From Rhodoferax sp. WC2427 (lineage in GTDB: Bacteria; Pseudomonadota; Gammaproteobacteria; Burkholderiales; Burkholderiaceae_C): a stretch of 64,000 bases of DNA. Positions 593-19,054 of the stretch are shown here, piece after piece (within the stretch, counting starts at the first letter, position 1; every line of letters begins with the position of its first letter). The notes under the pieces were generated by a model that did not search any database, was not told the origin of the DNA, and worked only from the letters and a program-made list of their open reading frames with translations. The stretch is taken from NCBI RefSeq assembly GCF_040822085.1, contig NZ_CP162006.1, positions 806,001-870,000 of the forward strand, in the 5' to 3' direction. The translations under genes and the position numbers were made by a program.

Positions 593-637
593 TGGTGCCG
601 GAGAGATGAATCGAACACCCGACCTTCTCATTACGAA
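593..637. repeat. attL: left 45-bp copy of the tRNA-Thr 3' end
   Basis: These 45 bp are identical to 19010-19054, the 3' part (T arm, variable region, acceptor strand and CCA) of the intact tRNA-Thr gene. The match stops at position 637 in the anticodon loop region, after which the sequences diverge. An orphan tRNA 3' fragment at one end and an intact tRNA at the other is the classic footprint of tyrosine-integrase insertion into a tRNA gene. Confidence 0.95.
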
Positions 638-840
638 CTCTGGCACCGATAGCTGTTTATTGTTGCCGATTGCTGTCTTCATTCTTGACGATACGATTTT
701 AACAGCCCAGATTGATGAGAAAAAGCCCCAGCTTTGTGCAGCAACTGTGACATAGCTGTGACATGGGCACGCACAGAAGGGCGCACAGTCGGCCATCTGG
801 CAGACTCTTGGCAGTCTAAAAGTTGTAGGGGTTGAAGAGA
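638..840. other. Left end of island, non-coding, with candidate integrase arm sites
   Basis: This stretch between attL and the first island gene has no convincing gene. It contains two direct copies of TGTGACAT at 747-754 and 758-765, spaced 11 bp (one helical turn). A matching pair occurs near the right end at 18945-18962. This is the layout expected of arm-type binding sites for a tyrosine integrase or for Xis. The function is inferred. Confidence 0.55.
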
Positions 841-1722
841 ATGGCGCAGCGCAAACCAAAAAGGCCGTCCACCGACAGGGCACTGTCATCTAAGCAGTGG
901 GCATGGGAGTTTCTCCGATTCAACGGAGAGTATCGAAAAGCATACGCAGCCTGGATGGAACTTCCGCACGCAGTACGGTGTGTGTCGGTGTCGTCGACTG
1001 GCATACCACTTGGCGACTGCCCTCCCAGTACCCCCATGTCATATTTCGATGTGACCCCGCTTGCGAGGGCGAACGAAACGGTCGCCGAATGGCTATCTCG
1101 TACCGAGGAAGAGCGTAAATCCGGTTGGAAAATTGCGGCTTCTTCAAGGCTGGCCCCTCCGAGGGAATTCTTGATTTCTGAGTGGATTGACCCCCAGTCC
1201 CCCTTGCCGAAGGAAAAAGAGCACATCTGGGACAAGTTCGGCGTGGAGTCAGTAGTCGGTCTGGTCACAGATAAACACTTGCCTCAGCGTGCAGCGGTAG
1301 CTGTGGGCCAGTTGACGGACATGCATGAACTTGCATTCATCGTCGATGTCCGTAGTCCCTTGGCCTTCCTCGAAAAGCAGTTCAAGGACGCAGTTCTTTC
1401 GCATAGGGAGACACTACTCGCACGCGCTGTCGGTGAACAGCCTGATGTGTACGGGGGCAAGGCCATCATCAATAGCGGTGGAATTTACGAAAAGTACATA
1501 GTGATTCTTAATCGACTCGATCAAGGGGAAACCGAGGATGACATTCGCTACAAACAGACTACTGGCGGCCCGAGACTACCCCATTGGGATGCTTATATAG
1601 CCAACATGAAAACTCAAATTCCTGATGCTATAGCGATGAGAGAAGGTGGGTACAGGAAGATCGCCTATCGAGATGACTTTGTCGGTGATTTGAAGAAGAA
1701 GTCCACGACCGGAAAAACATAG
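841..1722 (+). CDS. DUF6499-like / transcriptional-regulator-domain protein of integrative elements
   Basis: A protein of 293 residues. The N-terminus (AWEFLRFNGEYRKAYAAW, residues about 21-38) resembles the DUF6499 / 'transcriptional regulator' segment found at the start of proteins encoded on proteobacterial integrative elements, typically AWEFLRRNPEYR. The remainder is not recognisable to me; it has no clear catalytic motif or membrane segment. An in-frame TTG lies at 832, but AGGGG at 827-831 sits 9 bp before the ATG at 841, so ATG was chosen. It is the first gene of a plus-strand module leading to the replication genes and is probably a DNA-binding or regulatory protein of the element. 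The assignment rests on the N-terminal resemblance only. Confidence 0.6.
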   Translation: MAQRKPKRPSTDRALSSKQWAWEFLRFNGEYRKAYAAWMELPHAVRCVSVSSTGIPLGDCPPSTPMSYFDVTPLARANETVAEWLSRTEEERKSGWKIAASSRLAPPREFLISEWIDPQSPLPKEKEHIWDKFGVESVVGLVTDKHLPQRAAVAVGQLTDMHELAFIVDVRSPLAFLEKQFKDAVLSHRETLLARAVGEQPDVYGGKAIINSGGIYEKYIVILNRLDQGETEDDIRYKQTTGGPRLPHWDAYIANMKTQIPDAIAMREGGYRKIAYRDDFVGDLKKKSTTGKT

Positions 1723-1818
1723 CTCTGCATCTTTTTCCTTAGAGAAATCGTAGTCAAAAAATACGATAGCCAGCGGTGAGCAGTTGTGCTCATCGCTAGT
1801 CCCTCCAAGGAGAAAATC

Positions 1819-2226
1819 GTGCCAGTAACGTCATCCCAAGTCCAACTTGGACGCAGCCCGTCAGCCGTCCAAAATTTTTTCAACCCGCTTCAGCCTGTCA
1901 ATCAGATCGCAGGTCATGGAGGCGCTAGCACATCGGCTGCTTCGGAAGCCCCAAACGTGCTGCCCAAAGAAACCAATCACCAGACTTGGTTTCGCGTATC
2001 TCAGCTAGCCGAAAAGCATAAAGAATTTACTGAAAACGCGATTCGTGCGCAGATTTTTGCGGCAAAGCCGCGTCCAAGTGCAAAAACCAAAGACGGAATT
2101 TCCTGGATTGAGGGAAACGGTTTGGCACCTGCAATCCGGAAGTGTGGACGCGCTGTTTTGATCAATGAATCGATGTATGCAAAGTGGATTGCAACCGGTT
2201 CGTGCACTGAAGGCGGCGAAAAATGA
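1819..2226 (+). CDS. Small winged-helix / excisionase-like DNA-binding protein
   Basis: A protein of 135 residues. The C-terminal half (TWFRVSQLAEKH near residue 55, then NGLAPAIRKCGRAVLI) has the layout of MerR/AlpA-like excisionase folds: an N-terminal helix-turn-helix, then the wing ending in a 'RKVGRRVLI'-type strand. Such proteins act as recombination directionality factors or as activators of element genes. A longer frame opens at a GTG at 1786, but AAGGAG at 1807-1812 is placed 6 bp before the GTG at 1819, so that start was used. The stop overlaps the next start (ATGA at 2223-2226), indicating translational coupling. Function inferred from fold-like pattern. Confidence 0.6.
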   Translation: MPVTSSQVQLGRSPSAVQNFFNPLQPVNQIAGHGGASTSAASEAPNVLPKETNHQTWFRVSQLAEKHKEFTENAIRAQIFAAKPRPSAKTKDGISWIEGNGLAPAIRKCGRAVLINESMYAKWIATGSCTEGGEK

Positions 2227-2678
2227 ACTCGCCCATCAAAAAAATTGATCTTGGCGCCATCAAGGACGATAAGTCTTCGTCATTGCACAAGTCGCTGAAA
2301 ACACGAATCGCCGTTGACGGACTGGTCGCCAATGTAATTGTGATTGATCTTGACCAAGTGTATTTGTCGGACGAAGCCGAAGCGGCACTTAAATGCTGCT
2401 ACCTCTCGGCACCTTACCTGCTCGATAAGTTCGGTGGTCATTACAAGAAGAACCTCATGGCAACAGTCACACGTGGCAACCTCAAAGGCGAGAAGTACAT
2501 CAATACTGAGGCAAACGAATACGTTCACTCTACGGACACAGGAGTCGACATTTTGGTTGTTGGCAAGTGCGTTGAACTCGACAACCGCATCGCGCGCCAA
2601 ATTCACATCACATGCCGCCCTCAGAAGCCCGCGCAAGCTATCGGCTCGGAGAACACGTCAGCAGAAGCTGGGCTGTAA
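2223..2678 (+). CDS. Hypothetical protein of the island replication module
   Basis: A protein of 151 residues that I do not recognise. It has no signal peptide or membrane segment. The central region (VANVIVIDLDQVYLSDEAEAAL, then a KGEKYINTEANEYV stretch) looks like a compact alpha/beta protein. Its start overlaps the stop of the excisionase-like gene by ATGA, and it is followed by the AAA ATPase, so it belongs to the same transcription unit. A role accessory to replication, such as single-strand DNA binding or replication control, is possible from position only. Confidence 0.55.
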   Translation: MNSPIKKIDLGAIKDDKSSSLHKSLKTRIAVDGLVANVIVIDLDQVYLSDEAEAALKCCYLSAPYLLDKFGGHYKKNLMATVTRGNLKGEKYINTEANEYVHSTDTGVDILVVGKCVELDNRIARQIHITCRPQKPAQAIGSENTSAEAGL

Positions 2679-2740
2679 ATAGTCTGCACATCAACAACTT
2701 GAACGTGGCAGCTAAAAAGCGCCAAGCCTCAAAAGAAAAA

Positions 2741-3730
2741 ATGAAAACAAAACGAATATCAGTCAAGGAAAGTAGCAGAACTGGCCTGGCAATCAAGCAA
2801 AGAAACGTCACCCTTGCGAGCGTAAGAGACACTCACTTTCAGCCATGCGAACGCATGACCTTGATTCCAGCAAGCGAGTTGGTCACGCTATCCATTGCAC
2901 CTCGGAAAAAGCACTGGGGCTCCTACATTCAATCCAACCAAACTGGCATGATTTATGGTGAGCGTGGTGGTGGCAAAACATGGCAAGCGATGAGTATCGC
3001 CGTCTCAATCGCCACACGCTCGGAATTTTTGGGAAACAAGCCGGGTATGGCACGTCGCGTTATTTACCTCGACGGAGAGATGGACCTCGTGACGTTTCAG
3101 CAACGTTTGCGCCGAATCTGCGAGAGTCAGGGCGTCGAACCCCCACAGGACCTGAAAGTTTTCACACCTGAATCTTTCACCGATTTACTGCCGTCTATCA
3201 ACACAGCAGAAGGGCAAAAACTCATCGACAAGATGATCGGCACCGACTGGGACGTCCTGATAGTTGACAACTATTCAGCTTGGAGTAGCGATGGCCGTGA
3301 AACAGCCGAAGCATGGGCACCCTTTATGCGCTGGATGCTCGGGCACAAACGCGCAGGTCGTACTGTCATTGTCATCCATCATTCCGGCAAGGCTGGCAAG
3401 CAACGCGGCAGCAGCAAACACGAAGATGCCCTCGACTGGTCAATCAACCTTTTACCGGACAAAAAATCTCCACAGGATGGCGCTCTTCGGTTCACTTTGG
3501 TCTGGGAAAAAGCTCGACACCTTGCAAGCAATGAAATTGCGCCTATTGCAGTGACCATGCGGCAAGGCAAAGACGGATTTTTGACGTGGGAACACCAGCA
3601 GGGCACTCACAAAGACCCCAAGATCGACAGGGCTCTCAAGCTGCGTCAGCAGGGAAAAACCAACATTCAGATTGCGGAAGAGTTGGATGTAGATCGCACC
3701 ACAGTGGGCCGCTGGCTAAAAGACGCCTAA
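2741..3730 (+). CDS. RepA-like AAA ATPase / replicative helicase with C-terminal HTH
   Basis: A RecA-fold ATPase of the AAA_25 / plasmid RepA helicase type. It has a Walker A motif GERGGGKTW about 70 residues in, a Walker B-like strand DVLIVDNYS, and the downstream sensor-like strand TVIVIHHSGKAG that is typical of hexameric RepA-family helicases. The last 40 residues (KLRQQGKTNIQIAEELDVD then RTTVGRWLK) form a helix-turn-helix like those of resolvases. The frame is open from 2612, overlapping the previous gene. I place the start at the ATG at 2741, after that gene ends, although no strong ribosome-binding site supports it; ATG 2855 is another option. With the gpII/X initiator downstream it forms a self-replication module. 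Confidence 0.75.
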   Translation: MKTKRISVKESSRTGLAIKQRNVTLASVRDTHFQPCERMTLIPASELVTLSIAPRKKHWGSYIQSNQTGMIYGERGGGKTWQAMSIAVSIATRSEFLGNKPGMARRVIYLDGEMDLVTFQQRLRRICESQGVEPPQDLKVFTPESFTDLLPSINTAEGQKLIDKMIGTDWDVLIVDNYSAWSSDGRETAEAWAPFMRWMLGHKRAGRTVIVIHHSGKAGKQRGSSKHEDALDWSINLLPDKKSPQDGALRFTLVWEKARHLASNEIAPIAVTMRQGKDGFLTWEHQQGTHKDPKIDRALKLRQQGKTNIQIAEELDVDRTTVGRWLKDA

Positions 3731-3777
3731 AAGCGACTTGATGCAGCCGTGCAAACACTAGCACGCGCGCCGATGCA

Positions 3778-3827: not shown

Positions 3828-3878
3828 AAGTAGAGCTATGGCTATTACTCTCATATTAGATACAGGCACAGATAAGCC

Positions 3879-5048
3879 ATGATTGACTACTTCAACATAA
3901 GCATAGATGGAGATGACTTTCCACCAATTGGTAAACAACTCAGAACCATGCAGCCTAGTGGAGCGGAATCCGAGTCGTTTACCGAGGTCGATGTTCGCGT
4001 TGCCAACGGTGCCCCGGAGTTCACCGCGAAAGTCGAGACCAGAACCAAAACGAAGATGCGATTCAGTGGTTCACCCGCCACATGGTTGCAGGGTCACAAC
4101 GGCATGGGCAGCAATGATTTCCAGCCGTTGGTTAAGGCCAGCGTGTTGTTAGTTTTTGATACGCTAAAACTGTCTTGTCCTGCTTCAGTATTGGACGCGA
4201 TTTCCACTGGGGAATATGACGTTGACGAGGTGCATGTTGCGGAGCAATACCGTATGCCTCACGCGCTGGTTGGGTCAATGTGCGAGAACATCCGTCGCAA
4301 CGCAGATGACTCGCTTCAGGCTACCCCTTTGGGAAAAGGCATCGGTATCCGCTTGTGGCCAAATTCCCGCGACCGCCAGGTCCTGATGTACGACAAGCAC
4401 CATTACTTTATGGACGGTCTTCGGAAGCATAAAACCAAGCTGCTCGGCAACATGCCAATGGGATTTGATCGTATTGGAACGAGCCTTGAATTCGACCGGA
4501 TGAAGGATGAAGTTCTGACTCAGGGCATGCGCATAGAAACACGATTGAAACGCATGTTGGACAACAAAGCGAATCCCTTCAATAGGGGCACGCATTGGAA
4601 ACCGGAAACTGCACGCGAACTGCATCGCAAAGTGTTGCTCGATGTCCCACTTTTGGACCTGCCGCCGGTCCCCATTCAGGAGCAGCTACTTGCGGTAGCT
4701 AGCTCAGATCACAAGATGCTAATCGCGCTGTGGTTGACGGGACGCGATATGCGGCAGTTTTTCGACAGCGACCCCACCTACTACCGGAGACGAACGGCCA
4801 TGATCAATCTGCATGGCATCGATATGTCCACGCCCCCAATTCCTGACAGTGGAATTCGTTGGGCGGATGTGATTGGCGCCGATTCGCTTATTGAAGTGCC
4901 AGCATGGGCAACCGAAAGCGGCTTTGTGCATGTTCCTGAGCGTTGGATTGACTGGCGCGACCCGACTCAAAACCACCGAGCTTGGTTGCGACCGGACCCG
5001 GAAATCCGATTTGGTAAAAGAAGCGGGCCGGACGCTCAATCGAGTTAA
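3879..5048 (+). CDS. Phage/plasmid replication initiator, gene II/X family (inovirus Gp2-like)
   Basis: A 389-residue protein of the filamentous-phage gene II/X replication family. Members nick one strand of the replicative form and start rolling-circle replication. The N-terminus MIDYFNISID is typical. The central part carries the family's RVLMYDK-type block (here RQVLMYDKHHYF) and the MRIETRLKR block seen in gpII proteins. Length agrees with the family (about 350-430). The catalytic tyrosine cannot be fixed by eye; Y in YDK or in the DPTYYRRR segment are candidates. No coat, pIII or Zot-like genes accompany it, so this is an integrated replicon rather than a filamentous prophage. Confidence 0.75.
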   Translation: MIDYFNISIDGDDFPPIGKQLRTMQPSGAESESFTEVDVRVANGAPEFTAKVETRTKTKMRFSGSPATWLQGHNGMGSNDFQPLVKASVLLVFDTLKLSCPASVLDAISTGEYDVDEVHVAEQYRMPHALVGSMCENIRRNADDSLQATPLGKGIGIRLWPNSRDRQVLMYDKHHYFMDGLRKHKTKLLGNMPMGFDRIGTSLEFDRMKDEVLTQGMRIETRLKRMLDNKANPFNRGTHWKPETARELHRKVLLDVPLLDLPPVPIQEQLLAVASSDHKMLIALWLTGRDMRQFFDSDPTYYRRRTAMINLHGIDMSTPPIPDSGIRWADVIGADSLIEVPAWATESGFVHVPERWIDWRDPTQNHRAWLRPDPEIRFGKRSGPDAQSS

Positions 5049-5203
5049 TTTCCCTAGGCAAGTGCGCGGCTTCGCCTCAACGATCACGGCGCAGTAACTT
5101 CGCCGTGTTACCGACAAGAAGCTTTTCGTCATCCCCTGGATTAGCCATGCCCAACGAGCCGGCAAGTTAGGCCGCCGCCGTAAAGGACGGTCTCCCTTGA
5201 AAC

Positions 5204-6241
5204 TTAATGGTGTTTCAAGAAATCCAAAACGTCCGCCACTGCCTGCTTGCGCAGCTTTGCATCACCGCCCATGCGTTGCGTCGAATTCTTCACGCATCGT
5301 TCAGCCTCGACTAATTCGGCGCTGCTCGTGATGGCCCGGTTCTTCCGAAAATCGAAGGCGTTCCCGAGGCCTCCGCCGTCCTTCATTGTCATGAAAATCT
5401 CCATGTCGCAGTCTTTCGCTCCCACTGAGTCCGGCCGATAAAAGAAGGTGCGCAAGAGATCGAAGCCGTGATAGCCGCCCTTGTAAATCTTGTACTGAAT
5501 GTCGTTTCCGTGTTTGGCGAGATCGTCCGCATACTTCGCGCACAGGGACATGTCTTGCGAGTCGTCCAGTTCGGGGTCCGACAAAAGCATCAATATTGGC
5601 GCAGTGGCCTTGTCGCGATCGTCAGTCCGGTAGCGATAGTTGCACATACCAGGGTACAAGACGATGTGACCGGCGAATCTGACCCCCTTGGTATCCACTG
5701 GGTCCTGCCATGTCGGCCACGCGGTCTCGAATGCCACCGTGCCGCCTCGGCTTGAACCCATGTTGTAGATGCGCGTTGCGTCGATTTTTGGGTGTGTTGA
5801 CAGCATACGGAGTGCATTCATCGTGTCGGCAACCTGCGCGGAGGTTGGCACCAAGGTTGAATCACTGCCGGTATTGTTGACGCCACGTGGGCCGAAGCTG
5901 TCTTGGATAAATACGGCATAACCAGCTTCGGTGAGCGCTGGCGCCCACACTTCGCGGACCGTGTTTGATGGACCGCCACTGTCGTGAGAGAAGATGACAG
6001 CAGGCGTCTTGCCGGCAACGTCTTTCGGCATCAATAAATCTCCCCAGACGATCTGCTGCTTCGTGGATTTCATGATCTTTCGCGCGTAGTCCCACCGGCC
6101 TTTCGGTGTCATGGACTGATATTCGATTCGGCCCGTTTCACCTCCGGCCAAGTCAGCTAATGGCGCTGCGCTGACCACAACCGAGGCAAGCAGCATCGAC
6201 TGCGCCGCTAAACCCCGAATCCAGATATTGATCTTTTTCAT
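5204..6241 (-). CDS. Secreted dienelactone-hydrolase-like alpha/beta hydrolase
   Basis: A 345-residue alpha/beta hydrolase. It starts with a Sec signal peptide (MKKINIWIRG, then a hydrophobic stretch ending SAAP), so it is periplasmic or exported. The fold features are visible: oxyanion-side HDSGG, nucleophile elbow GSSRGG (Ser in G-x-S-x-G form), a late acidic region around SDPELDD, and YHGF with the likely catalytic His. A longer frame exists to 6301, but the ATG at 6241 is preceded by AGAGGAAC and begins the signal peptide. It diverges from the XRE gene at 6375 across a 133-bp gap, the usual layout for a regulator and its target. Substrate unknown. As cargo on a defence island it is unexpected. 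Confidence 0.75.
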   Translation of the reverse strand: MKKINIWIRGLAAQSMLLASVVVSAAPLADLAGGETGRIEYQSMTPKGRWDYARKIMKSTKQQIVWGDLLMPKDVAGKTPAVIFSHDSGGPSNTVREVWAPALTEAGYAVFIQDSFGPRGVNNTGSDSTLVPTSAQVADTMNALRMLSTHPKIDATRIYNMGSSRGGTVAFETAWPTWQDPVDTKGVRFAGHIVLYPGMCNYRYRTDDRDKATAPILMLLSDPELDDSQDMSLCAKYADDLAKHGNDIQYKIYKGGYHGFDLLRTFFYRPDSVGAKDCDMEIFMTMKDGGGLGNAFDFRKNRAITSSAELVEAERCVKNSTQRMGGDAKLRKQAVADVLDFLKHH

Positions 6242-6374
6242 CACTGTTCCTCTTGTGTTGTTTTTGAAGTTGATGCCGCCTATGAAGAGTAAAGTCTTCA
6301 AGGCATAGGAAGTCTCTCACAATGAAGCATTTACTCCGTCGCTGTTTATGCGTCATTGAGGCATTTTTGCTTCG

Positions 6375-6755
6375 ATGGCAACGACGGAAAAAATACCCAA
6401 AAAGCGCAAGGCCGCGTCCGAGCGCCATCCGTTGTCGATTGCTTTCGGCAGCTACTTGAAGGAGCTTCGGAAAGCGCAAGACAAGTCGCAGGCTGAACTG
6501 GCGTACGACGCCGGCCTGGACCGGACGTACATTTCGCTGCTGGAGCGTGGTATGTCAGCGCCGTCGCTGCTGGTCTTGGACACCCTGGCGAAGTCTTTCA
6601 AGCTGTCCATGACGCAGTTGGTGGCAGGTCTGGACGAGCATCTGCCAAAGCCGCTTCGCCGAAAAGCCGATCCGATCAAGCGTCGCAGCAATGAAGCCAG
6701 TCTGGCGCTGTCTGCTGAGCGACCTCACGGTAGCCGGCGTTCGCCGTTGCGCTGA
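6375..6755 (+). CDS. XRE-family HTH transcriptional regulator
   Basis: A 126-residue Cro/C1-type DNA-binding protein. The HTH runs from about residue 25 to 80: FGSYLKELRKAQDKSQAELA, then DAGLDRTYISLLERGMSAPS, then a closing helix. A basic tail (KADPIKRRS, RPHGSRRSP) follows. No peptidase or toxin domain is present. No good ribosome-binding site precedes ATG 6375, so a leaderless or weakly translated message is possible. It diverges from the secreted hydrolase and is convergent with the protease module, and may control either set. Confidence 0.85.
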   Translation: MATTEKIPKKRKAASERHPLSIAFGSYLKELRKAQDKSQAELAYDAGLDRTYISLLERGMSAPSLLVLDTLAKSFKLSMTQLVAGLDEHLPKPLRRKADPIKRRSNEASLALSAERPHGSRRSPLR

Positions 6756-6873: not shown

Positions 6874-7617
6874 TTATTGCCTTCGGCAACGTACAGCGGC
6901 CAGCAATCGAACCTCTTCTTCGTGCCACTCTGCGGCGGCATACATCCATACGGCGGATTTGCTCTTGTCAGTGTCATTCGGCTTGGTCAGCTTCGTTTTG
7001 GCAGACCGAAGACCTGCGTTGGTGAGAGGCAAGCGAAGACGCGCATTGAAGGCTGCAAACGCGGGCTCACTGGCACTGGGATCAAGCAACAGCAGGGTGT
7101 CGGGATAATGTACTTTGCCGATCACCAGGCCCTCAACGCCGACCGCCAGCGACCAGTGCTTGGTGCGTTGGTGTTTCACCGACGCAAATGCTAAGGCCAC
7201 CATATCTCCACGCATCAGCCAATCCACGGCATAGCCGTCGGCGTTGTCTTCCGCACCGTACTTCGGCGTAAGCTGAATTGGTAGAGCCAGACTCTGAACC
7301 AGTTCCACCCATTCTGGTGCATGCACACCAGAAAAATATGTGTGCGAGAACGTCTTCCACACCAAGGCCGCGGTTCCAAATTTACGGCGGGCCATGTCGT
7401 GCAATGCCGAAGGTTTGACCAGATCAAAAACTATCAACAATATGGCCACGACATGGACCCCGCAAGCGCTGTCTAAACTCGACTGCTGCATGAATGGACT
7501 TACCGGCTCGTTGCGCTTGGATTGGACCGTCAGTGAGTGGCCCGTCTGTAGACCGGCATACACACGCTGGAACCGATAGGCTACTTTTTCTTGGCCGGGG
7601 GTTGAGTGCGCGGGCAT
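6874..7617 (-). CDS. Papain/C39-like cysteine protease-fold protein of unknown role
   Basis: A 247-residue protein with the ordered signature of papain-fold peptidases: Gln before a Cys helix (QSSLDSACGVHVVAILL, Cys near residue 53), then a His strand (KHWSLAVGVEG), then an acidic residue in LLLDPSASEP. That is the C39/papain Cys-His-Asp order. No signal peptide or transporter domain is present, so it should act in the cytoplasm. The ATG at 7617 overlaps the stop of the upstream gene (ATGA), showing tight coupling. It is the last gene of a three-gene minus-strand set. Whether it is an active protease is an inference from the motif order. Confidence 0.55.
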   Translation of the reverse strand: MPAHSTPGQEKVAYRFQRVYAGLQTGHSLTVQSKRNEPVSPFMQQSSLDSACGVHVVAILLIVFDLVKPSALHDMARRKFGTAALVWKTFSHTYFSGVHAPEWVELVQSLALPIQLTPKYGAEDNADGYAVDWLMRGDMVALAFASVKHQRTKHWSLAVGVEGLVIGKVHYPDTLLLLDPSASEPAFAAFNARLRLPLTNAGLRSAKTKLTKPNDTDKSKSAVWMYAAAEWHEEEVRLLAAVRCRRQ

Positions 7618-7997
7618 CAATAGTCTCCAGGCAGCAACAAGGTCGTCACGCTGCGATCCGCTTCCGTGATCACCCAAACGGTGGGCAGCGCTCCACGCTT
7701 GTCTCTGGGCGTGAGTGCCAATCTGGACGCATCCACCAAGCGATACACACTCATCAGCCGCAGCCGTCGCGTGATGGCAAACTCGTTTTCGCCGCGATCT
7801 TCTTCACATATGTCGCCCCAATCGCCGTGTATGTGGCGGCTGCATAGGGCCGCAGCGCTAAAGCCAGTTTGTTGAAGTAGCTCTAGCGCGCCAGGTGTGG
7901 CGACAATCTGGCCCACGCCAAATCGGGCTGAGTTGGTATAGATGACGGTGGTTCTGGCTGTAGGGTGGCTGGTTGTGGGCTGTGGATCAATGGACAT
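7617..7997 (-). CDS. Conserved plasmid/ICE-borne small protein ('GQIVATPGAL' family)
   Basis: A 126-residue protein of a family I recognise from plasmids and integrative elements, usually left as hypothetical or misannotated as a restriction subunit. Its hallmarks are FGVGQIVATPGALELLQQ, then HGDWGDICEEDRGENE, then VWVITEADRSVTTLLLPGDY at the C-terminus. Its function is not known. The start at ATG 7997 has AAGGAG 7 bp upstream; a longer frame to 8096 has no such support. It overlaps the protease gene by ATGA. In other elements the family is often solitary, so its coupling to a protease-fold gene is worth noting. Confidence 0.75.
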   Translation of the reverse strand: MSIDPQPTTSHPTARTTVIYTNSARFGVGQIVATPGALELLQQTGFSAAALCSRHIHGDWGDICEEDRGENEFAITRRLRLMSVYRLVDASRLALTPRDKRGALPTVWVITEADRSVTTLLLPGDY

Positions 7998-8154
7998 GAC
8001 TTTCTCCTTGGTTGTTAACTGAACAGAACAAAAAATGGACGTGGGTTGGCCTCCGAAAACTGGTGTCGGATTTCTCATCACATCGGTGGAAATCAAGGTG
8101 ACCGGCTAATCCGGTCGATGCGGGCTCGCCGCTTGGAGCGAAGACAGTGGCTAA

Positions 8155-11267: not shown

Positions 11268-11280
11268 CTAAGGTGATGTG

Positions 11281-11694
11281 ATGGATGTCTTTTCGCCGGA
11301 CAAACGTTCTGACATCATGTCGAAAATTCGCAGCAGGGGAAATGTTGCGACTGAACAGGTCGTTGCGAAGCTATTTCGGCAACACGGCATCACTGGCTGG
11401 CGGCGACATCAAAAACTCAAGGGTACACCTGACTTCACTTTTTATAAAGAGAAGACGGTAGTGTTTGTTGATGGCTGCTACTGGCATGGATGCCCCCGAT
11501 GTAGCCGTGTCCCAAAGTCCAACGTGGAGTTCTGGATCAACAAATTCGAGAGCAATAAGAGGCGTGATCGCCGGGTTAATCGTGAGCTACGTGCCTCAGG
11601 CTGGCATGTAATTCGTGTGTGGCAGTGCCGCCTTAAGAGCCAGGCAGGGTTTTTATCGCGGCTGCGGCGGACATTGAAATTGCCAGCGGAGTGA
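11281..11694 (+). CDS. vsr: Very short patch repair (Vsr) endonuclease
   Basis: A 137-residue Vsr nuclease. It nicks 5' to T in T:G mismatches made when 5-methylcytosine deaminates, so it pairs with the C5 methyltransferase just upstream (13 bp gap). Motifs match E. coli Vsr: TPDFTFY (metal-binding Asp), VVFVDGCYWHGCPRC (the GCFWH block with catalytic His), FWINKFESNKRRDRR, and GWHVIRVWQC. The ATG at 11281 follows an AGGTGA site; an in-frame GTG directly precedes it. The last 62 bp overlap, in antisense, the 3' end of the NotI-like endonuclease gene. Confidence 0.95.
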   Translation: MDVFSPDKRSDIMSKIRSRGNVATEQVVAKLFRQHGITGWRRHQKLKGTPDFTFYKEKTVVFVDGCYWHGCPRCSRVPKSNVEFWINKFESNKRRDRRVNRELRASGWHVIRVWQCRLKSQAGFLSRLRRTLKLPAE

Positions 11695-12850
11695 GTGCAC
11701 TAAGTTCTGCCCTTATCTTGTCTTCGAAAACAGGTTGCGCCACGGGAGTGCCACCAGTTAATCCCTTGACGGCTTCTTCCAGCGTCATGAAATACGCGTC
11801 GCCCTGCGTAAGCTCGAATCGGCGTGAGGTCGGATTATGCTTGTAGTCAACTACAAACCATACAACGTCAGAAAGCGAGACGTGGTCCGTAGTTCGCATC
11901 TTTCCCATCGACTCGTAAAAAGGCCGATCCACCACGACTGCCATTCGTTTACCCCATCTCCGTAGCGTTGGTATTTTTATTTGTAACTGCGGCATCAATC
12001 TTTTTGGGCCACTACTTCGATAGTCTGGGCGCCTGTTCTCGGATGGGAAAACAATTCCGTTTCCGCCGTCTTGGATGTCTTTGGCGATTTGACTAAAGAG
12101 CTTTGGCATTTCCGGGCCAGAAAAATAAACTGCCTGAATTTCCAGTGCGATCCAAGGAAGTGGGTAATCCGGTGGTTTAGAAGCATCGACAACGACCATG
12201 TCAATCCGACCAACGTCCTCACCCTCTGATCCGTCATAAGTCTCTGACGATTCCAAGAAGCCTACTTCTCCGACTAAGATGGGAAAAGGCTGACCTAAGA
12301 TGACACTGGAAGCCCAGTTGAATGCGGTAGCCCCTTCGTGAAAACGATAGGGGCAAAGTGTTCTAAGTGCACCCTTTGCACCTGATACCGGCACTACCTC
12401 GTCGTTCGGCGCGCGCGTATATGCTCTCAGGGAACATACACCACCAGACTTTGTGCAGGGTGTCAGTCCATACCCATCCACTTTTTTGAACGGGCATAGC
12501 TTCGTAGATTTCTGTTCAATACAGAACTTGTTCTCTAGGATCTCGTGTCGCTTTGTCTCCGCCTTATTCAGCGGCACATCGTTGTCGACCTTCCTTCGAA
12601 GTTGGATTAGACGTTCGCGTTCGGGCTTTGTTAGGCTGACCTTTGCTGGCACTCCATAGCTTGAAAATTCCAACCGCTCGGGTGCAGAAAGTTCTGTAAA
12701 AGACTGGCCATACCATTCACCTATACCGAAACGTGTAGTGGGATCGCCCGCCGTAGTCTCCGTTGTTGCGGTCGATGAGTGCGCATCGATTTCGATCGCT
12801 GGTGTAGGTTCATCGTCAGAGGCATGTGCGTCGTGAGTGGTACTCGTCAT
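11633..12850 (-). CDS. NotI-like type II restriction endonuclease
   Basis: A 405-residue protein resembling the NotI restriction enzyme family. The N-terminal half has the cysteine cluster (CPFKKVDGYGLTPC, then GGVCSLR, later LCPYRF) that binds a metal ion in NotI. The catalytic PD-(D/E)XK-type core reads GRIDMVVVD then, 20 residues after the first Asp, ALEIQAVYFSG. The E-x-Q end of this motif is the variant reported for NotI. Length is close to NotI (383). It is convergent with methyltransferase-vsr, and its 3' end overlaps vsr by 62 bp. The chosen ATG at 12850 gives a family-like start; a longer frame to 12892 is less likely. The recognition sequence is not deducible. Confidence 0.85.
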   Translation of the reverse strand: MTSTTHDAHASDDEPTPAIEIDAHSSTATTETTAGDPTTRFGIGEWYGQSFTELSAPERLEFSSYGVPAKVSLTKPERERLIQLRRKVDNDVPLNKAETKRHEILENKFCIEQKSTKLCPFKKVDGYGLTPCTKSGGVCSLRAYTRAPNDEVVPVSGAKGALRTLCPYRFHEGATAFNWASSVILGQPFPILVGEVGFLESSETYDGSEGEDVGRIDMVVVDASKPPDYPLPWIALEIQAVYFSGPEMPKLFSQIAKDIQDGGNGIVFPSENRRPDYRSSGPKRLMPQLQIKIPTLRRWGKRMAVVVDRPFYESMGKMRTTDHVSLSDVVWFVVDYKHNPTSRRFELTQGDAYFMTLEEAVKGLTGGTPVAQPVFEDKIRAELSALTPLAISMSAAAAIKTLPGS

Positions 12851-12977
12851 GTGACCAATTGTGCAGGACAAATTCCAACCGTTTGACCACAAGTTGGCTG
12901 CCTACAACGCACAGTGCGCATGCTGGTGTTGATTGACCATCATTCCTGCCTAGCTTGAGCAGGCTGCTGGCGATCAC

Positions 12978-13100
12978 CATTGGCGCTGAGAGCCGCTTTG
13001 CACGATTGCCGTCGGTGGTGTGGGCGAACTTGCGCCGCCACAGGGTCTGCAACCTGTTCTCACGCATCAAACGCCTTACTCGGTAACCCCCGATGTGCAG
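12978..13100 (-). pseudogene. IS3-family transposase (OrfB) fragment
   Basis: On the minus strand, GYRVRRLMRENRLQTLWRRK followed by FAHTTDGNRAKRLSAP matches the N-terminal DNA-binding region of IS3-family OrfB (typically 'RVRRLMRENGLQA...TTDSNH..PIAPN'). Only about 40 codons remain. No catalytic DDE core or terminal repeat is seen. It abuts the serine-recombinase fragment at about 13095-13105, so two mobile elements have been cut and joined here. Ends are approximate. Confidence 0.75.
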
Positions 13101-13451
13101 CCCCTGACCGGCAAGGGCATCTGCGTCACGCTCGTCAAAGAGAACTTGACGTTCGAGCCACCGGCCACGGGTGCCGACGCGCACAAAACAGCGTACACGA
13201 CTTTGATGCTGCAATTGCTGGGTGCCGTTGGTCAGTTCGAGCGTGCGCTGATAAAAGAGCGGCAGCGCGAGGGTATCGCCATCGCCAAAACCCGATACGT
13301 GTATAAAGGGCGAAAGCAAAGTCTTGATGATGTCGGTCTAGGAAAAAATCGTAAATTTGTGGCGGACGGCATGACCAAGGTTCAGATCGCTGAAAAACGT
13401 GGTATTTCTCGTGCCAGTGTTTACGTTTACCTAAAAGCATCTGGCGTTTGA
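13096..13451 (+). pseudogene. Serine resolvase/invertase, 5'-truncated
   Basis: The C-terminal two thirds of a Tn3-type resolvase or DNA invertase. Recognisable blocks are LTGKGICVTLVKENLTF, LMLQLLGAVGQFERALIKER (the conserved E helix), then a DNA-binding hinge KGRKQSLDD and the C-terminal HTH (GMTKVQIAEKRGISRASVYVYLK). The N-terminal 60 or so residues with the catalytic Ser and Arg pair are missing, replaced by IS3 sequence, so it cannot be active. It indicates that an earlier transposon once occupied this part of the island. Confidence 0.85.
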
Positions 13452-13460
13452 GGGGAGTTA

Positions 13461-13624
13461 AGGACGCTCTGCAAAACTCACAGCGGTCTGTGGCAGCACG
13501 GCCTCGGGCGGTCTGCGGCGTTGCTTTTCTTGCCAATAGCTACGGCTATTGGCTGCTAAATGCGCCTTGCATCCCATCCCGATCAGCACTACCACATCCT
13601 CGCTTGAGTTTTGCAGAGCATCCT
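13461..13624. mobile_element. MITE-like element with 20-bp terminal inverted repeats
   Basis: A 164-bp segment begins AGGACGCTCTGCAAAACTCA (13461-13480) and ends with the inverse, TGAGTTTTGCAGAGCATCCT (13605-13624), matching 19 of 20 positions. TA flanks both ends (13459-13460, 13625-13626), consistent with a TA target duplication, and the repeat symmetry extends outward through TTA/TAA. The interior has no gene and includes a GCCAATAGC/GCTATTGGC hairpin. It looks like an internally deleted insertion sequence that could be mobilised in trans. Parent family not established. Confidence 0.75.
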
Positions 13625-13656
13625 TAAATTAAAATCTTAATGAGAAATATTTAAAT

Positions 13657-14412
13657 ATGAAATATCCTGTTAAAGCGGCTAATGGTCATGCCGGAGAATA
13701 TTTTTTTGCTTACCAAGTCGCGAGTGTCCTAAAATGGCCCTGTAGATTAATCGATATTGATATAGGTATAGATGCGCAGGTTGAAGTAATTAATGATGAC
13801 CGCTTAAGCACTGGCAGGTTCGTAGCATTTCAGATTAAGGCTTCGAGTGTCGAGGAGCCGAACTGTCGCTATGTTACAGATGAGCAATTGCAGTACTGGC
13901 AACAATTGGGATTGCCGGTCTTCGTCGTCCTTGTGGAGCTAGGTAAGCGAAAAATGTTTTTGCATCGAGTTTCCTTTGGGGCCGAATATGAAAGGACTGC
14001 GTCTGGTGCGGTGCGTATCGATTTTGATCGAATAAAAGATATATTTACCAAAGATAGCGAAAGGTTAATAAGGGACGCGGCGTTTGAGGCAAGCTCAAGT
14101 GTGCAACAGCATCTTGATCTTGTCCGTTCTGGTATTTCCAGGATTCAAGAGACGATTGACGCAATGGTGGACTTTCCCGACGCACATTCGCTTATTGAAG
14201 CAATGGAGATGCGTCACGATTTATATGAAAAACTTGCACAAGCTGAAGCTTTAGCCACTGCAATGAAATTTGGGGAGGCTCAAGTTCATAACGTATCGGC
14301 TGAGCTTGAGCAAGTGCTAGATGATCTAAAGTCATTTATGACGCAGTCTTTTATCGTTGACCACGATGATGGTACCCAAGCGATACAGAGGTTCGTTGAT
14401 TCAAGGAGATAG
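13657..14412 (+). CDS. DUF4365 domain protein (PD-(D/E)XK-like fold), candidate defence gene
   Basis: A 251-residue protein whose first 130 residues follow the DUF4365 pattern: NGHAGEYFFAYQVASVL, DIDIGIDAQVEV (acidic strand), FVAFQIKAS (the Q-x-K of a nuclease-like core), then a helix-rich part and VFVVLVELGKRKMFLH. Residues 130-251 are helical (a likely coiled coil around EQVLDDLKSFM). DUF4365 occurs in proteins of anti-phage and mobile-element loci, often as the nuclease or binding part. The gene is visibly AT-rich relative to its neighbours, suggesting separate acquisition, and begins 30 bp after the MITE-like element. No partner gene is adjacent unless the broken frame at 14535-14776 was one. 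Confidence 0.7.
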   Translation: MKYPVKAANGHAGEYFFAYQVASVLKWPCRLIDIDIGIDAQVEVINDDRLSTGRFVAFQIKASSVEEPNCRYVTDEQLQYWQQLGLPVFVVLVELGKRKMFLHRVSFGAEYERTASGAVRIDFDRIKDIFTKDSERLIRDAAFEASSSVQQHLDLVRSGISRIQETIDAMVDFPDAHSLIEAMEMRHDLYEKLAQAEALATAMKFGEAQVHNVSAELEQVLDDLKSFMTQSFIVDHDDGTQAIQRFVDSRR

Positions 14413-15005: not shown

Positions 15006-16001
15006 ATGACCAAAATTTCCGCCGAAAGCACAGGCACGGCAACCGTCCGCAAGTCCGATACAGCCACCATCGGCAACCAGCCACCGAAGCCACCACAGTC
15101 CGTTCTGGACGGTTTTTCAGCCATGGCTGATCGCTTTATGGAAGCTGCACAATCCGAAGCCAGTAAGCGCGCTTACGACAGTGATATTCGGATGCTCGCT
15201 GCCAGTGGAATCACTATTCCGGCAACCGCCGCGGAAGTAATCGAATACCTGGCCCAATTCGCTGGAAAGCTTGCAGTGGCGACCCTTGAGCGGCGGCTCA
15301 TTTCTCTTCACAAAGCCCACCTTGAGAACTCTTTTAAATCCCCGACTGTTCACATTACTGTGAAACGTACCATGCAGGGCATCCGGCGCACGCTTGGGGC
15401 AAGGCAAAAGCATGTAAGGCCAATGGTTAAAGATGACTTGCTAGAGGCAATGGTAATGATTGACCGTCAGAAGCCCGTCAAAGCTGCGCGCGACCGTGCC
15501 CTACTGTTGGTCGGATTTGCATCTGCTATGCGTCGCTCAGAGTTGGTAGCGATACAAGTTGGACATCTGACATGGCTGTCTAGCGGCATTGAAATCTTTT
15601 TGCCCCACAGCAAAACCGACCAAGAACGTCAAGGTCGCACGGTGTTTATACCGTTCGCAAATGGCGACCGCTGCCCGGTGAGTGCGTTGACACAGTGGCT
15701 AGATGTTGCCGAAATCAAAGAGGGTTTTGTCTTTAGAGCCGTCTCCCGCCATGACCGCGTTGCACGGCATGGTTTGTCTGCGCAGTCAGTGGCCCTGCTC
15801 GTTAAGTCCTCGGTGGCGCGAGTCGGAGGTGATGCCGATAAAGTCAGCGGTCATAGTCTACGCGCCGGCTACTGCACACAGGCGGCGATGACGGGGTTGC
15901 AACCGTGGCAAATTCGGGAGCAAACAGGGCACAAGTCAGACGTGACACTTGCCAAATACATTCGGCCTGTAGCAAGGCGGTCCATTCCAACTTTGCTGTG
16001 A
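15006..16001 (+). CDS. Tyrosine recombinase (second, non-terminal)
   Basis: A 331-residue site-specific recombinase of the phage-integrase/XerD type. An N-terminal SAM-like core-binding domain (residues about 35-140) precedes the catalytic domain with Arg in SAMRRSELVA, Lys in LPHSKTDQ, HSLRAGYCTQ, the second His in TGHKSDVT and the nucleophile Tyr in LAKYIRP. All six canonical residues appear present, so it could be active. It is not at the island edge and is unrelated in detail to the integrase at 17714-18847. It is convergent with kwaB. It may mark a nested element or take part in cassette-like exchange of defence genes; that is speculation. Confidence 0.9.
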   Translation: MTKISAESTGTATVRKSDTATIGNQPPKPPQSVLDGFSAMADRFMEAAQSEASKRAYDSDIRMLAASGITIPATAAEVIEYLAQFAGKLAVATLERRLISLHKAHLENSFKSPTVHITVKRTMQGIRRTLGARQKHVRPMVKDDLLEAMVMIDRQKPVKAARDRALLLVGFASAMRRSELVAIQVGHLTWLSSGIEIFLPHSKTDQERQGRTVFIPFANGDRCPVSALTQWLDVAEIKEGFVFRAVSRHDRVARHGLSAQSVALLVKSSVARVGGDADKVSGHSLRAGYCTQAAMTGLQPWQIREQTGHKSDVTLAKYIRPVARRSIPTLL

Positions 16002-16096
16002 CTGGACACGAGAGCGTGCTCGCAGCCGTCCGGAATCATCCCAAGCCATAAAGCTGCCGCTGCGCTGGCGGCGCTTATCACCGCGCTTGCCCAGCA

Positions 16097-17011
16097 TTAG
16101 ACAGCAGCAGTAGATGGCACGTCGTAGGTTGCAAGTGATAACCGTGAGTGCAGGCGATGATCAAGCAATACCTGCATGATGGTTCGCATAGATTCCTCCG
16201 TTACCACGATTCGGCCAGTGGGATCGAATTGGATGTTCCAGCCCTCGGCATTGTTCACTTGCTGCAAGCGTGCCATGTAGTCCGGGTTTGCATAATTAGC
16301 CTTCTGATGAATCACGGCCATCCGCCGAAGGTGCATCGTGTTTGTGCCGACGTGGTCAATCATTGGCTGCAGGTCTGTGAAACTTGCCGCAAATACCGGA
16401 TCAACTCTTAACTCAGCAAAGGAGTTGGCATATTCGATCTTATAGCCCAGCAGCGTCTCAAATGCCGCCTTGCTCATGACCAGGATATCGTTGTCAAGCA
16501 CAATGAAATCCAGGTTCTTCGCAATTGTGAAGCTCTTGTCCGCGACCAAATCCAATTGATTAGCTCGGAAGACGACGTTTATGACGCTGCGCGCCTTCTT
16601 CGTCTTCCAGGTGTCGGTCACCCGCTTGACACAATAAAGTACCTTCTCACCAGCCCGCAGTCGGATCACATAGCCCGCGCAGTTTTTGAGATCACGGTCG
16701 TTTTTAACTCTATGTTCTTCAGAAGGCTCATCCACCAACGCCTTCAGATCGCCAAAGGTAGTCTCATCAGTGCCGACGTGCAAACAGCTAACTTCGTTTC
16801 GCTGGGCAACCAAGGAGTAGTCTTCAACTTCGGTATGGGCCTGCAACGATCCAATAACGATGTTTCGGAGTTCTTGCGCCAGCGCGTCTGAGACCTCAAT
16901 CGAGGTAGAAGAAAAGCCGCCGCCCACTCGCTTCTTAAACACCCAAAGAGACAAAACTGCATCCGCAACAGCAAAGCCTCGGCAATCAGCCAGCGCCTTT
17001 TCCTTCGTCAT
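16097..17011 (-). CDS. kwaB: Kiwa anti-phage protein KwaB (DUF4868)
   Basis: A 304-residue cytoplasmic protein of the DUF4868 family, the second component of the Kiwa defence system. The DUF4868 core is recognisable from about residue 110: GYVIRLRAGEKVLYCVKR, KSFTIAKNLDFIVLDNDILVMS, KAAFETLLGYKIEY, then a helical tail containing the DHVGTNTMHLRRMAVIHQK segment. From published work, KwaB works with membrane-embedded KwaA, binds DNA and blocks phage replication and late transcription. The gene overlaps kwaA by ATGA (17008-17011), so the two are translationally coupled. Length fits the family (about 300-315). No frame damage is seen. Confidence 0.87.
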   Translation of the reverse strand: MTKEKALADCRGFAVADAVLSLWVFKKRVGGGFSSTSIEVSDALAQELRNIVIGSLQAHTEVEDYSLVAQRNEVSCLHVGTDETTFGDLKALVDEPSEEHRVKNDRDLKNCAGYVIRLRAGEKVLYCVKRVTDTWKTKKARSVINVVFRANQLDLVADKSFTIAKNLDFIVLDNDILVMSKAAFETLLGYKIEYANSFAELRVDPVFAASFTDLQPMIDHVGTNTMHLRRMAVIHQKANYANPDYMARLQQVNNAEGWNIQFDPTGRIVVTEESMRTIMQVLLDHRLHSRLSLATYDVPSTAAV

Positions 17012-17601
17012 TTACGATCAACCTTTGAAAGTACGTAGATGCCCTGCACAAGGCAAGAGCTAAGAGTTTGGTTTGGTAAAACGTTCTGGCGGGACAATGC
17101 CCGGAGACTTCGCTTCTTGCCTTCAATGCTGGCTTTGACCTCATACAACTGCCAGCCAACAGCAAGTAGAAGCGGGTTCATCAGAATCTGACCAGATCGA
17201 TAGCTGATCAGGAACATCCACAGCATGAACAAGCCGAACCCGAGCACCTTGCCAGTACCGCCAAGCTCTACGCCCATGAAAGAAACTATGTACGGAAAAA
17301 CGTAGTTGATCAGGTCATTGGGAATGGTCTTCGATTCTTCAATCGTCATTTCAGTGCTACCACGCATGTGCTTCAGCAGCCAAAGAAAAAAGACGAGGCT
17401 GAGAAACGTAACCGCAAGGAAAGTCCAGACCAAGACGGAATTCTGGAATTCGGGCAGATCACATTCGGTCCAGAACTTTGGCCTCCTGCAAAGTAAACGC
17501 GTCCAGAACTCAGACTTAATATCTTGCACTGCAAGGATTAGCGCGAGCGGAAAATATGAACCAAGAAAAAGTAGGGCAGCCGGAAGTAGCTTTATTTGCA
17601 T
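17008..17601 (-). CDS. kwaA: Kiwa anti-phage protein KwaA (membrane sensor)
   Basis: A 197-residue inner-membrane protein with four to five hydrophobic segments: about residues 4-25 (LPAALLFLGSYFPLALIL), 56-76, 97-113, 119-136 and possibly 139-155. A short Cys-containing loop (CRRPKFWTECDLP) follows the first span, and the C-terminal tail is basic and cytoplasmic. The size, topology and coupling to a DUF4868 gene identify KwaA, the membrane sensor of Kiwa that responds to phage attachment or injection. The first gene of the pair, its promoter region holds two adjacent palindromes (17621-17660). The assignment rests mainly on topology and on kwaB. Confidence 0.82.
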   Translation of the reverse strand: MQIKLLPAALLFLGSYFPLALILAVQDIKSEFWTRLLCRRPKFWTECDLPEFQNSVLVWTFLAVTFLSLVFFLWLLKHMRGSTEMTIEESKTIPNDLINYVFPYIVSFMGVELGGTGKVLGFGLFMLWMFLISYRSGQILMNPLLLAVGWQLYEVKASIEGKKRSLRALSRQNVLPNQTLSSCLVQGIYVLSKVDRK

Positions 17602-17620
17602 AGTGCGCCTTCAGCGCGAT

Positions 17621-17660
17621 TAAATTGCTGCAATTTATTACAGACTATCATAGTCCGTAA
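17621..17660. promoter_or_regulatory. Two tandem palindromes upstream of kwaA, candidate operator
   Basis: A perfect 17-bp palindrome (TAAATTGC-T-GCAATTTA, 17621-17637) is immediately followed by a 23-bp palindrome with one mismatched pair around the inner GACTAT-C-ATAGTC (17638-17660). They lie 20-59 bp upstream of the kwaA start codon, where a repressor or activator would bind. No regulator gene is adjacent; the XRE protein of the island is one candidate. Binding is inferred from symmetry only. Confidence 0.55.
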
Positions 17661-17713
17661 CGGGTGACGACGCCCAGTGGCGATGAACTTGTCGCGATCA
17701 GTGTGTAAGCGGG

Positions 17714-18847
17714 TCAGCCTTGCTGGGCTTGTTTGTTGAGAAAGTGCTCGGTTCCGGTTCCAAACTTCTTTTCGTTCATGCTCCGGAGGACGTCGTCAAT
17801 GTGAGACGCGGCTAAGTGGGAGTATCGTTCTGTCATCTTGGTGGTTTGGTGCCCCAACACTTTGCTTATCGACAAGAGGCTCGCACCGTTCATGGCTAGA
17901 TAGCTAGCCGTCGTGTGACGGAGGTCGTGAAACCGAAACTCTGAAATTCCCGCTGTCCTCAGGGCCGCTCCCCAAGTTTTGCGTAGATCGACTGGTTGTC
18001 GTGGGTTCGTCGCACTCGGGAAAATTAGGCCAGTGGCAACACTGGTTTTATGGATTTGGATCAGCGTTGCGCGACGTTCTTCCAGTAGTTCGAGAGAGGG
18101 AGACGTGATAAGCACAGAACGCGGTTTGTCGTTCTTGGTCTTGGTCAGGTGTACCCGTGTAAAGCTCTGATCCGGCGCGGCATGAATGTCTTGCCAGCGC
18201 ATGTTCATGATCTCGCCCTTACGCATTCCGGTCGCGATCGCCAGAACTACCACCAAGTACAGGTCGCGATTGGGTGAGCTTTTGCAGGCAGTGAGCAGAG
18301 ACTCGCGCTCTGAGTCGGTCAAGTATCGGGTGCGCTCGTTATTAACCTTCGGACGCTGCACATTTTCAACTGGCGAAGACTCGCACCAGTTCCACTGCTT
18401 GCGCGCCACGGTGAACGCATGCGAAAGTGCCATCATGTAGCGCAGGACAGTTGCTGGGGCGGGTGGCTTCCCAAGCCTTGTTGTCGACTTTTTGAACTTG
18501 TCGATGCTGCGTGTCACAAGGTCGGTCGTAACTTCAGACAGGGCGTAGTGACCAAGCTGTCCAATCCACCACTCGATATGCGTTTTGTGGTCTTTGCCGC
18601 CGCTCGCCTTGTCAATCAGAACATTTTCTTTGTACCGTTCCAGCATCTCGCGGACGGTGTGCTGGCTCGCTGGATTCTTGCGAATCGTCATGCCAGTGCG
18701 GATTTCGGTTTCCGTCTGAGCCGCCCACTTCTTGGCGTCGTTCTTCCGAAGAAAAGTAGCAGAGCGTGGAGGGTAGCCGTGGATGCGGACTTGAGCTTGA
18801 TAGCTCAGGTTGCCGTCTTGATCTTTGCGTTCGCGGATTGAGGCCAT
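17714..18847 (-). CDS. int: Island integrase (tyrosine recombinase)
   Basis: A 377-residue tyrosine integrase that should catalyse insertion into and excision from tRNA-Thr. Domain order: an N-terminal arm-binding-like beta domain (SYQAQVRIHGYPPRSATF), a core-binding SAM-like domain about residues 65-165, then the catalytic domain with Arg in ATGMRKGEIMNM, Lys in LTKTKNDKPR, HDLRHTTASYLA, the second His in LGHQTT and Tyr in TERYSHLA. It lies 162 bp inside attR and reads away from the tRNA, in the same direction as the tRNA and the fbp operon. The start ATG at 18847 is followed by the usual ASIRERK. Paired TGTGACAT sites occur in its upstream region. Confidence 0.95.
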   Translation of the reverse strand: MASIRERKDQDGNLSYQAQVRIHGYPPRSATFLRKNDAKKWAAQTETEIRTGMTIRKNPASQHTVREMLERYKENVLIDKASGGKDHKTHIEWWIGQLGHYALSEVTTDLVTRSIDKFKKSTTRLGKPPAPATVLRYMMALSHAFTVARKQWNWCESSPVENVQRPKVNNERTRYLTDSERESLLTACKSSPNRDLYLVVVLAIATGMRKGEIMNMRWQDIHAAPDQSFTRVHLTKTKNDKPRSVLITSPSLELLEERRATLIQIHKTSVATGLIFPSATNPRQPVDLRKTWGAALRTAGISEFRFHDLRHTTASYLAMNGASLLSISKVLGHQTTKMTERYSHLAASHIDDVLRSMNEKKFGTGTEHFLNKQAQQG

Positions 18848-18944
18848 TGTTGCAGTTTGTGTACGTCAGCGATAAGCGACGGCGCAAACTTGGCCGAAAA
18901 CGGAGATGCACTGCTGGGCAGTGCTGCCAAATTGTGCCGCCTAC

Positions 18945-18962
18945 TGTGACATGAATGTGACA
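18945..18962. promoter_or_regulatory. Right-end paired TGTGACA(T) sites, candidate integrase arm sites / int operator
   Basis: TGTGACAT at 18945-18952 and TGTGACA at 18956-18962 are direct repeats with an 11-bp period, the same spacing and orientation as the left-end pair at 747-765. They lie 48-65 bp inside attR and about 100 bp upstream of int, so they could be arm-type sites and also affect int expression. A GCACTG-CTGGG-CAGTGC hairpin is nearby but lacks a T-run. Confidence 0.55.
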
Positions 18963-19009
18963 GCAAACGGCACTTTGGACTGTACGACTCGGTAAGTCGT
19001 TGATTCTAT

Positions 19010-19054
19010 TGGTGCCGGAGAGATGAATCGAACACCCGACCTTCTCATTACGAA
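19010..19054. repeat. attR: right 45-bp direct repeat inside tRNA-Thr
   Basis: Identical over 45 bp to 593-637. It is the 3' portion of the intact tRNA-Thr gene, supplied by the element's attP on integration so that the tRNA stays functional. Confidence 0.95.

Follow-up and report, generated by a model that had tools for sequence, protein, structure and literature searches.

The closest described systems are the I23, I44 and I55 islands of Pseudomonas. As reported, they encode an integrase of the IntY class beside an RNA gene (the tmRNA site), are bordered by direct repeats, carry defence cargo next to the integrase but no recognised transfer genes, and share a conserved distal region encoding an "inovirus Gp2-like" protein and a helix-turn-helix (HTH) protein; I55 is packaged and transduced by a jumbo phage (PMC12595487). 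The wider class of hitchers has been reviewed (PMC11389934). Here, we describe an island in the genome of Rhodoferax sp. WC2427 (a single 4.78-Mb contig), located at positions 593 to 19054 of a 64-kb stretch of contig NZ_CP162006.1 (positions 806,001 to 870,000), hereafter the window, to which coordinates refer unless a locus or contig is named, with strands given as + or −. We consider the island, with a probability of roughly 0.65, to be an integrative and probably still mobile element that uses tRNA-Thr, namely, a helper-moved hitchhiker with a replicon of its own. Directly observed are its boundaries, the empty site in related genomes, and a relative that shares its core, end motifs and backbone but has different cargo in both of 2 cargo slots.

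Compared by description, the island is organised like the I55-type islands: a tyrosine integrase adjoins an RNA gene, direct repeats are present, the defence genes stand closest to the integrase, G2P-like and HTH proteins are encoded distally, and recognised transfer genes are lacking. It differs from them in that the site is tRNA-Thr rather than tmRNA and in that it carries instead a helicase, a replication initiator (Rep) of family PF05144 and a module with a C39-like peptidase; unlike in the I55-type islands, no Pfam match to YqaJ, RadC or AlpA was obtained for 20 island open reading frames (ORFs). We presume that the "inovirus Gp2-like" protein of those islands may belong to a family other than PF05144. 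Given the island's similarity in plan to the I55-type islands, the label "hitchhiker or satellite", proposed in an initial annotation made from the sequence alone, appears by analogy to be a fair one for its class, although no helper was identified.

Other known elements match the island in part. The II/X-type replicons of filamentous phages and small plasmids have the same Rep family, but the island differs in its integration at a tRNA gene by a tyrosine recombinase, its own helicase, its large defence cargo and its lack of recognised virion genes. P4-like satellites and integrated plasmids (with AlpA, primase and integrase) likewise have both a replication module and an integrase placed at an RNA gene, and a Massilia plasmid carries relatives of 2 island proteins, the recombinase Int2 and the small protein p159, beside a P4-type primase and AlpA; the island itself, however, has no P4-type primase match and a Rep of the G2P type. 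Integrative mobilizable elements (IMEs) resemble it in being integrative and devoid of a mating apparatus, but the island has no relaxase match. We found no description of this lineage in the open-licence literature, which does not prove that none exists.

Boundaries and attachment site of the island

The island is flanked by direct repeats identical at 45/45 positions (593–637 and 19010–19054, 18,417 bp from start to start), and the initial annotation had recognised both these repeats and the arrangement in which they lie. The repeat corresponds to the last 45 of the 76 nt of tRNA-Thr(CGT): the right attachment repeat is part of the intact gene (19010–19085, −), and the left one is an orphan copy of its 3′ part (593–637, −). 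The element's integrase gene, int1 (17714–18847, −; PF00589, 3e-28), lies, as predicted, at the tRNA end, beginning approximately 160 bp from the tRNA copy. The enclosed approximately 18.4 kb have a GC content of 52.2%, compared with 64.3% in positions 19100–64000, and the named sources of proteins related to those of the island include Acidovorax, Comamonas, Rhodoferax and Limnohabitans.

The region from the tRNA to fbp was matched in 7 of the 8 same-genus genomes, host counted. In 2 of these (G203 and G204), the left and right flanks of the window, when joined, align over the point of joining, which corresponds to an exact empty rpmB–tRNA-Thr–fbp site with an intact tRNA and rpmB approximately 250 bp away. 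The comparison with empty sites that the initial annotation had proposed thus agrees with its boundaries, and no empty site with other boundaries was encountered in these 2 genomes. Three further genomes contain DNA of various lengths between the tRNA and rpmB (approximately 6.7, 6.3 and 1.8 kb in G039, G162 and G200, respectively), and a fourth, G201, has the left repeat, a full tRNA-Thr 4.6 kb further on and, another 30 kb or so away, an fbp-side tRNA copy lacking the 3′ part. In the host genus, the tRNA-Thr gene is an insertion hotspot. Repeats equal to the tRNA 3′ end, an adjoining integrase and an empty site in relatives are the hallmarks of an integrative element at a tRNA gene; the island is real and well delimited, foreign DNA placed precisely in tRNA-Thr. 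As a separate observation, the stretch inserted in G201 (L025, 6134–6209; L026, around 16007) apparently brings a whole tRNA-Thr with it, so that an element may supply the working tRNA.

A homologous element with different cargo in another genus

In G653, a genome from another genus, 2 copies of a 48-bp repeat that contains the island's core lie 25.9 kb apart (C1:3071035 and C1:3096925), and one of them is adjoined by an int1 gene whose product is 84% identical to that of the island. From the other end, the gene order is that of the island: a regulator (40% identity), orfB (51%), orfC (46%), the helicase (60%) and Rep (60%), followed by an HTH protein (57% over 67 residues), the C39 peptidase (52%), p159 (54%), p357 (25%) and Int2 (71%). 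In addition, the left 174 bp of the island are 81% identical to the corresponding end of the G653 element. The helicase and int2 belong, as judged from this sequence comparison, to a plan common to both. ARAGORN detected no tRNA in the G653 stretches with the 2 repeats; a full-length tRNA-Thr match lies approximately 40 kb off (3031187) and a further orphan copy at 3105249, which suggests an array at that gene. In G788, G085 and other related stretches, by comparison, only short or non-terminal repeats were found.

The cargo of the 2 elements differs in both slots, of which the first, between p357 and int2, holds restriction genes in the island, and the second, between int2 and int1, holds Kiwa. 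In G653, the first slot contains HsdM- and HsdS-like type I restriction frames (recognised by eye), a frame with a Zeta-toxin match (PF06414, 1e-8) and a 1044-aa frame, and the second contains frames of 371 and 229 aa, a 248-aa frame and a transposase-like frame. The pair of 371- and 229-aa proteins (L089, 15510–17268), for which neither PADLOC nor Pfam gave a match, is a candidate defence pair of unknown type; the idea that the 371-aa protein is a relative of KwaB was rejected, as no BLASTP similarity was found.

The ends of the 2 elements share a further feature, absent from the initial annotation. The paired motif TGTGAC-N5-TGTGAC, with a spacing of 11 bp, occurs exactly twice in the window, just inside both island ends (746–762, +, and 18945–18961, +), and exactly twice in a 45-kb stretch of G653, likewise inside both element ends. 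It did not occur in any of 200 first-order simulations of the island, nor in the 6 other related stretches scanned (G788, G085, G608, G031, G228 and G631). We regard these motifs as candidate integrase arm sites. More distant Int1 relatives (40%–44% identity) adjoin tRNA-Thr sequence (L123 and L124), tRNA-Asn (L125 and L126) or tRNA-Met (L127 and L128), and since the paired motif is missing from these 6 loci, it appears to be tied to the close Int1 type. Besides the repeats, the end motifs, as candidate sites, thus provide a separate link between both ends and a single integrase type.

Replication module

Rep (3879–5048, +) belongs to the G2P or II/X family of replication initiators, scoring above the curated cut-offs of both Pfam PF05144 (Phage_CRI; 2e-11) and NCBIfam rep_II_X (3.5e-9). 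The product of the preceding gene (2612–3730, +; PF13481, 2e-21), likely a replicative helicase, is an AAA_25 protein that has a RecA fold and, at its C terminus, an HTH; it has RadA-type matches in the PDB (best E 9e-5). The gene is itself preceded by orfC (2223–2678, +; no Pfam match), conserved beside the helicase gene in G653 and, with 41% identity, in G788. The Rep and helicase genes are neighbours in 4 related loci (L023, L024, L076 and L085), in which Rep identity ranges from 60% down to 26%. The initial annotation had credited the island with its own replicon of the rolling-circle type; the initiator of phage or plasmid type is indeed there, and rolling-circle replication is what we infer from the family to which Rep belongs.

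A database of 5.8 billion proteins yielded 66 relatives of Rep at E 1e-5, and no solved relative was obtained by sequence at E 1. Rep was found in 2 of the 200 family genomes and 6 of the 399 order genomes searched (own genome counted in both), in none of 50,697 phage records and in 5 of 72,556 plasmid records, the latter with identities of only 23%–24%; the 65 pattern matches in viral contigs included no relatives. Upstream of rep lies a 14-nt non-coding block, AAGTAGAGCTATGG (3828–3841, +), which is identical in the host, G653 and G788 and is a candidate for the Rep nick region, or origin. An extended pattern derived from the same sequences has a single occurrence in the window and none in 100 shuffles, and it had no match in viral contigs.

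Proposed mode of excision, replication and transfer

On the reading that we favour, Int1, perhaps helped by OrfB, would bind the paired TGTGAC sites at both ends and recombine the 45-bp cores; a circle of approximately 18.4 kb would be released, and an intact tRNA gene would stay behind. Rep, of the G2P type, would nick close to the conserved block (3828), the helicase with its RecA fold would drive rolling-circle copying and the plasmid-type recombinase Int2 would resolve multimers. The host would benefit through the 2 interchangeable defence slots, and the element would move with a helper, most likely packaged by a double-stranded DNA phage, the route reported for I55.

Several observations weigh against this reading. 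Close Int1 relatives are rare, being present in 8 of 399 family genomes at E 1e-60, and apart from the host only G653 among these genomes has an Int1 of more than 44% identity. Recent transfer, as judged from DNA identity, was rejected, int1 showing 81% identity compared with 84% for the host gene fbp. The AAGTAGAGCTATGG block is missing in the more distant relatives L024, L085 and L032 and could be regulatory; free-living or viral forms of Rep were not found in the phage, plasmid and viral-contig searches; transposon remnants lie within the cargo; and the reading does not account for the C39 module. Finally, excision, replication, resolution, transfer and benefit are all steps that we infer.

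Alternative explanations

Relaxase, type IV secretion system (T4SS) and virion families were not recognised among the ORFs scanned (20 against Pfam and 10 against PHROGs), in line with the initial annotation, which had noted no conjugation or virion genes. A weak match of the C-terminal HTH of the helicase to a terminase small-subunit family in the PHROGs scan (19.2 bits, E 0.002) is read as a shared HTH. With neither a relaxase nor a T4SS recognised in the 20 ORFs, the island is not an integrative conjugative element or an IME with a relaxase of its own, and the absence of transfer genes in an integrative element would fit an IME that has only an origin of transfer (oriT) and is moved by a conjugative element. 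Genes of the VirB4 family, 2 in G653 and 3 in G788, provide possible partners in the carriers of relatives, but none was found in the host genome and the oriT is hypothetical, no oriT search having been made; we hold this explanation to be unlikely.

No better placed is the possibility that the island is an immobile relic, an old element retained for its defence genes. The transposase and resolvase fragments and an inverted-repeat pair in the cargo are what might be expected of such a relic, as are the few close Int1 relatives. On the other hand, the attachment cores are 100% identical, int1, rep and the helicase gene are open frames, and a comparable element occupies this core in another genus; a loss of mobility therefore seems doubtful to us.

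The family of Rep also raises the question of whether the island is a satellite of a filamentous phage, with Rep making circles of single-stranded DNA for packaging and export by a resident inovirus. The host does contain an inovirus-like prophage outside the window (L117, 3195–14850; G000:C1, approximately 641.2–652.8 kb), with an integrase, its own PF05144 Rep, Zot (C1:647667) and secretin-like frames. However, the island and this prophage share only 15-nt matches, at chance level (E 0.29), and among the 5 genomes searched Zot was matched in the host only, not in G653 or G788, which carry relatives of the island. Since the Zot profile also matches in 5 of 14 control genomes and is not specific alone, the host match is read together with its neighbours. 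Furthermore, PF05144 Reps occur on small plasmids too, and the island ORFs scanned include no coat, adsorption or assembly (Zot) family, so that the island is not itself a filamentous prophage. We consider such a satellite quite improbable. Beside the inovirus-like prophage lie a gene for a reverse transcriptase (RVT_1, 2e-22) and one for a 318-aa partner with no Pfam match, perhaps retron-like defence cargo.

Least probable of all is a nested arrival, in which the Kiwa–int1 end and the Rep end came separately and form a chance composite, as might be suggested by the 2 different tyrosine recombinases and by G788, where much of the backbone is retained and orfC adjoins a different integrase. 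Against it, the same paired motif stands at both ends, and the entire gene order recurs in G653 from one end to the other.

Defence cargo and the second recombinase

The defence genes named in the initial annotation were all recovered by profile searches. KwaB (16097–17011, −; PADLOC, 6e-112) and KwaA (17008–17601, −; 2e-71) are encoded by adjacent genes, as in Kiwa, and nothing unusual was noticed about the pair, which here is cargo. Kiwa is described as a membrane supercomplex of KwaA and KwaB, the latter binding injected DNA but not cutting it (PMC12904381). The restriction set consists of a C5 cytosine methyltransferase (10224–11267, +; PF00145, 1e-67), a Vsr-type endonuclease (11278–11694, +; PF03852, 5e-19) and a restriction endonuclease of the NotI family (11633–12892, −; PF12183, 1e-70), and a DUF4365 protein (13657–14412, +; PF14280, 2e-13) follows. 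NotI sites, GCGGCCGC, are absent from the island and occur 3 times in the remaining window, which may be due to chance because the GC content of the island is lower.

The cargo also contains transposase-like and resolvase fragments (12816–13451, strand not assigned; HTH_21, 2e-6; partial Resolvase, 9e-7), and 23-nt inverted repeats (13458–13480 and 13605–13627), 96% complementary and 124 nt apart, stand between the resolvase fragment and the DUF4365 gene, possibly as a small mobile remnant. These transposon and resolvase remnants at 12.8–13.6 kb, like the helicase and int2, had not been noticed in the initial annotation. Int2 (15006–16001, +; PF00589, 1e-14) is a second tyrosine recombinase, of the plasmid type; its relatives in G788 and G085 are 68% identical, and it has matches, all below 60% identity, in 2108 plasmid records.

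Protease module and remaining genes

The protease module comprises 4 genes. The papain/C39-like cysteine peptidase (6874–7677, −, as the longest frame, the start shared with relatives being nearer 7596) has a conserved Gln-Cys-His-Asp set and a predicted papain-like fold, in which the Gln falls in a low-confidence stretch of the model; no relatives were found in plasmids and phages at E 1e-5, and no solved relative by sequence at E 1. An XRE-type HTH regulator (6375–6755, +; PF01381, 1e-11) has a relative in 11 of 14 loci with a C39 gene, and p159, a small conserved protein (7617–8096, −), occurs in 13 of the 14 and in 164 plasmid records. The plasmid relatives of p159 are annotated as "type I restriction endonuclease subunit M" or DUF6094, and the former name looks wrong because the protein is so small. 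The fourth protein, p357 (8155–9228, −), is all-helical in a model with a pLDDT of 84.5 and has 76 relatives; a comparison with PDB folds gave no match (best E 0.25). The 4 genes recur in other integrative loci, whether or not Rep is present, so that the protease module, which the initial annotation had correctly spotted but counted as cargo, is not local cargo. The neighbouring gene encodes an alpha/beta hydrolase of the dienelactone-hydrolase family (5204–6301, −; PF01738, 1e-9), with 41%–45% identical relatives in L023 (12494–13540), L072, L075 and L080; such hydrolases are repeatedly found next to the HTH/C39 module of various elements, with no obvious tie to mobility or defence.

At the left end, a regulator-like protein with a Trans_reg_dom (832–1722, +; PF20109, 1e-5, 26.2 bits against a cut-off of 23.8) occupies the same place as its G653 counterpart, and orfB (1786–2226, +; no Pfam match) encodes a small protein that, as a guess by eye, is possibly an excisionase or AlpA-like DNA-binding protein; its G653 relative has a weak HTH_17 match (E 0.15).

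Implications for mobile defence islands

A bolder proposal, which we put forward as a speculation with the odds against it, is that the island represents an undescribed family of integrative satellites, in which a filamentous-phage-type initiator and an own RecA-fold helicase would serve rolling-circle amplification, 2 plug-in defence slots would be split by a plasmid-type recombinase, and a cytosolic C39 module (HTH, p357, p159 and C39 peptidase) would sense or control the helper. If this were true, the pair in the Kiwa slot of G653 would be an unknown defence system.

Elements of this kind are already known, but the present lineage lends itself unusually well to testing. Many defence genes are carried by islands without a visible way to move; here, the ends, the empty site, the likely arm sites, a homologous element with other cargo and a candidate origin can all be named, and excision, replication and helper dependence are therefore directly testable. 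The 2 cargo slots, in turn, predict where further defence systems may be sought in relatives of the island.

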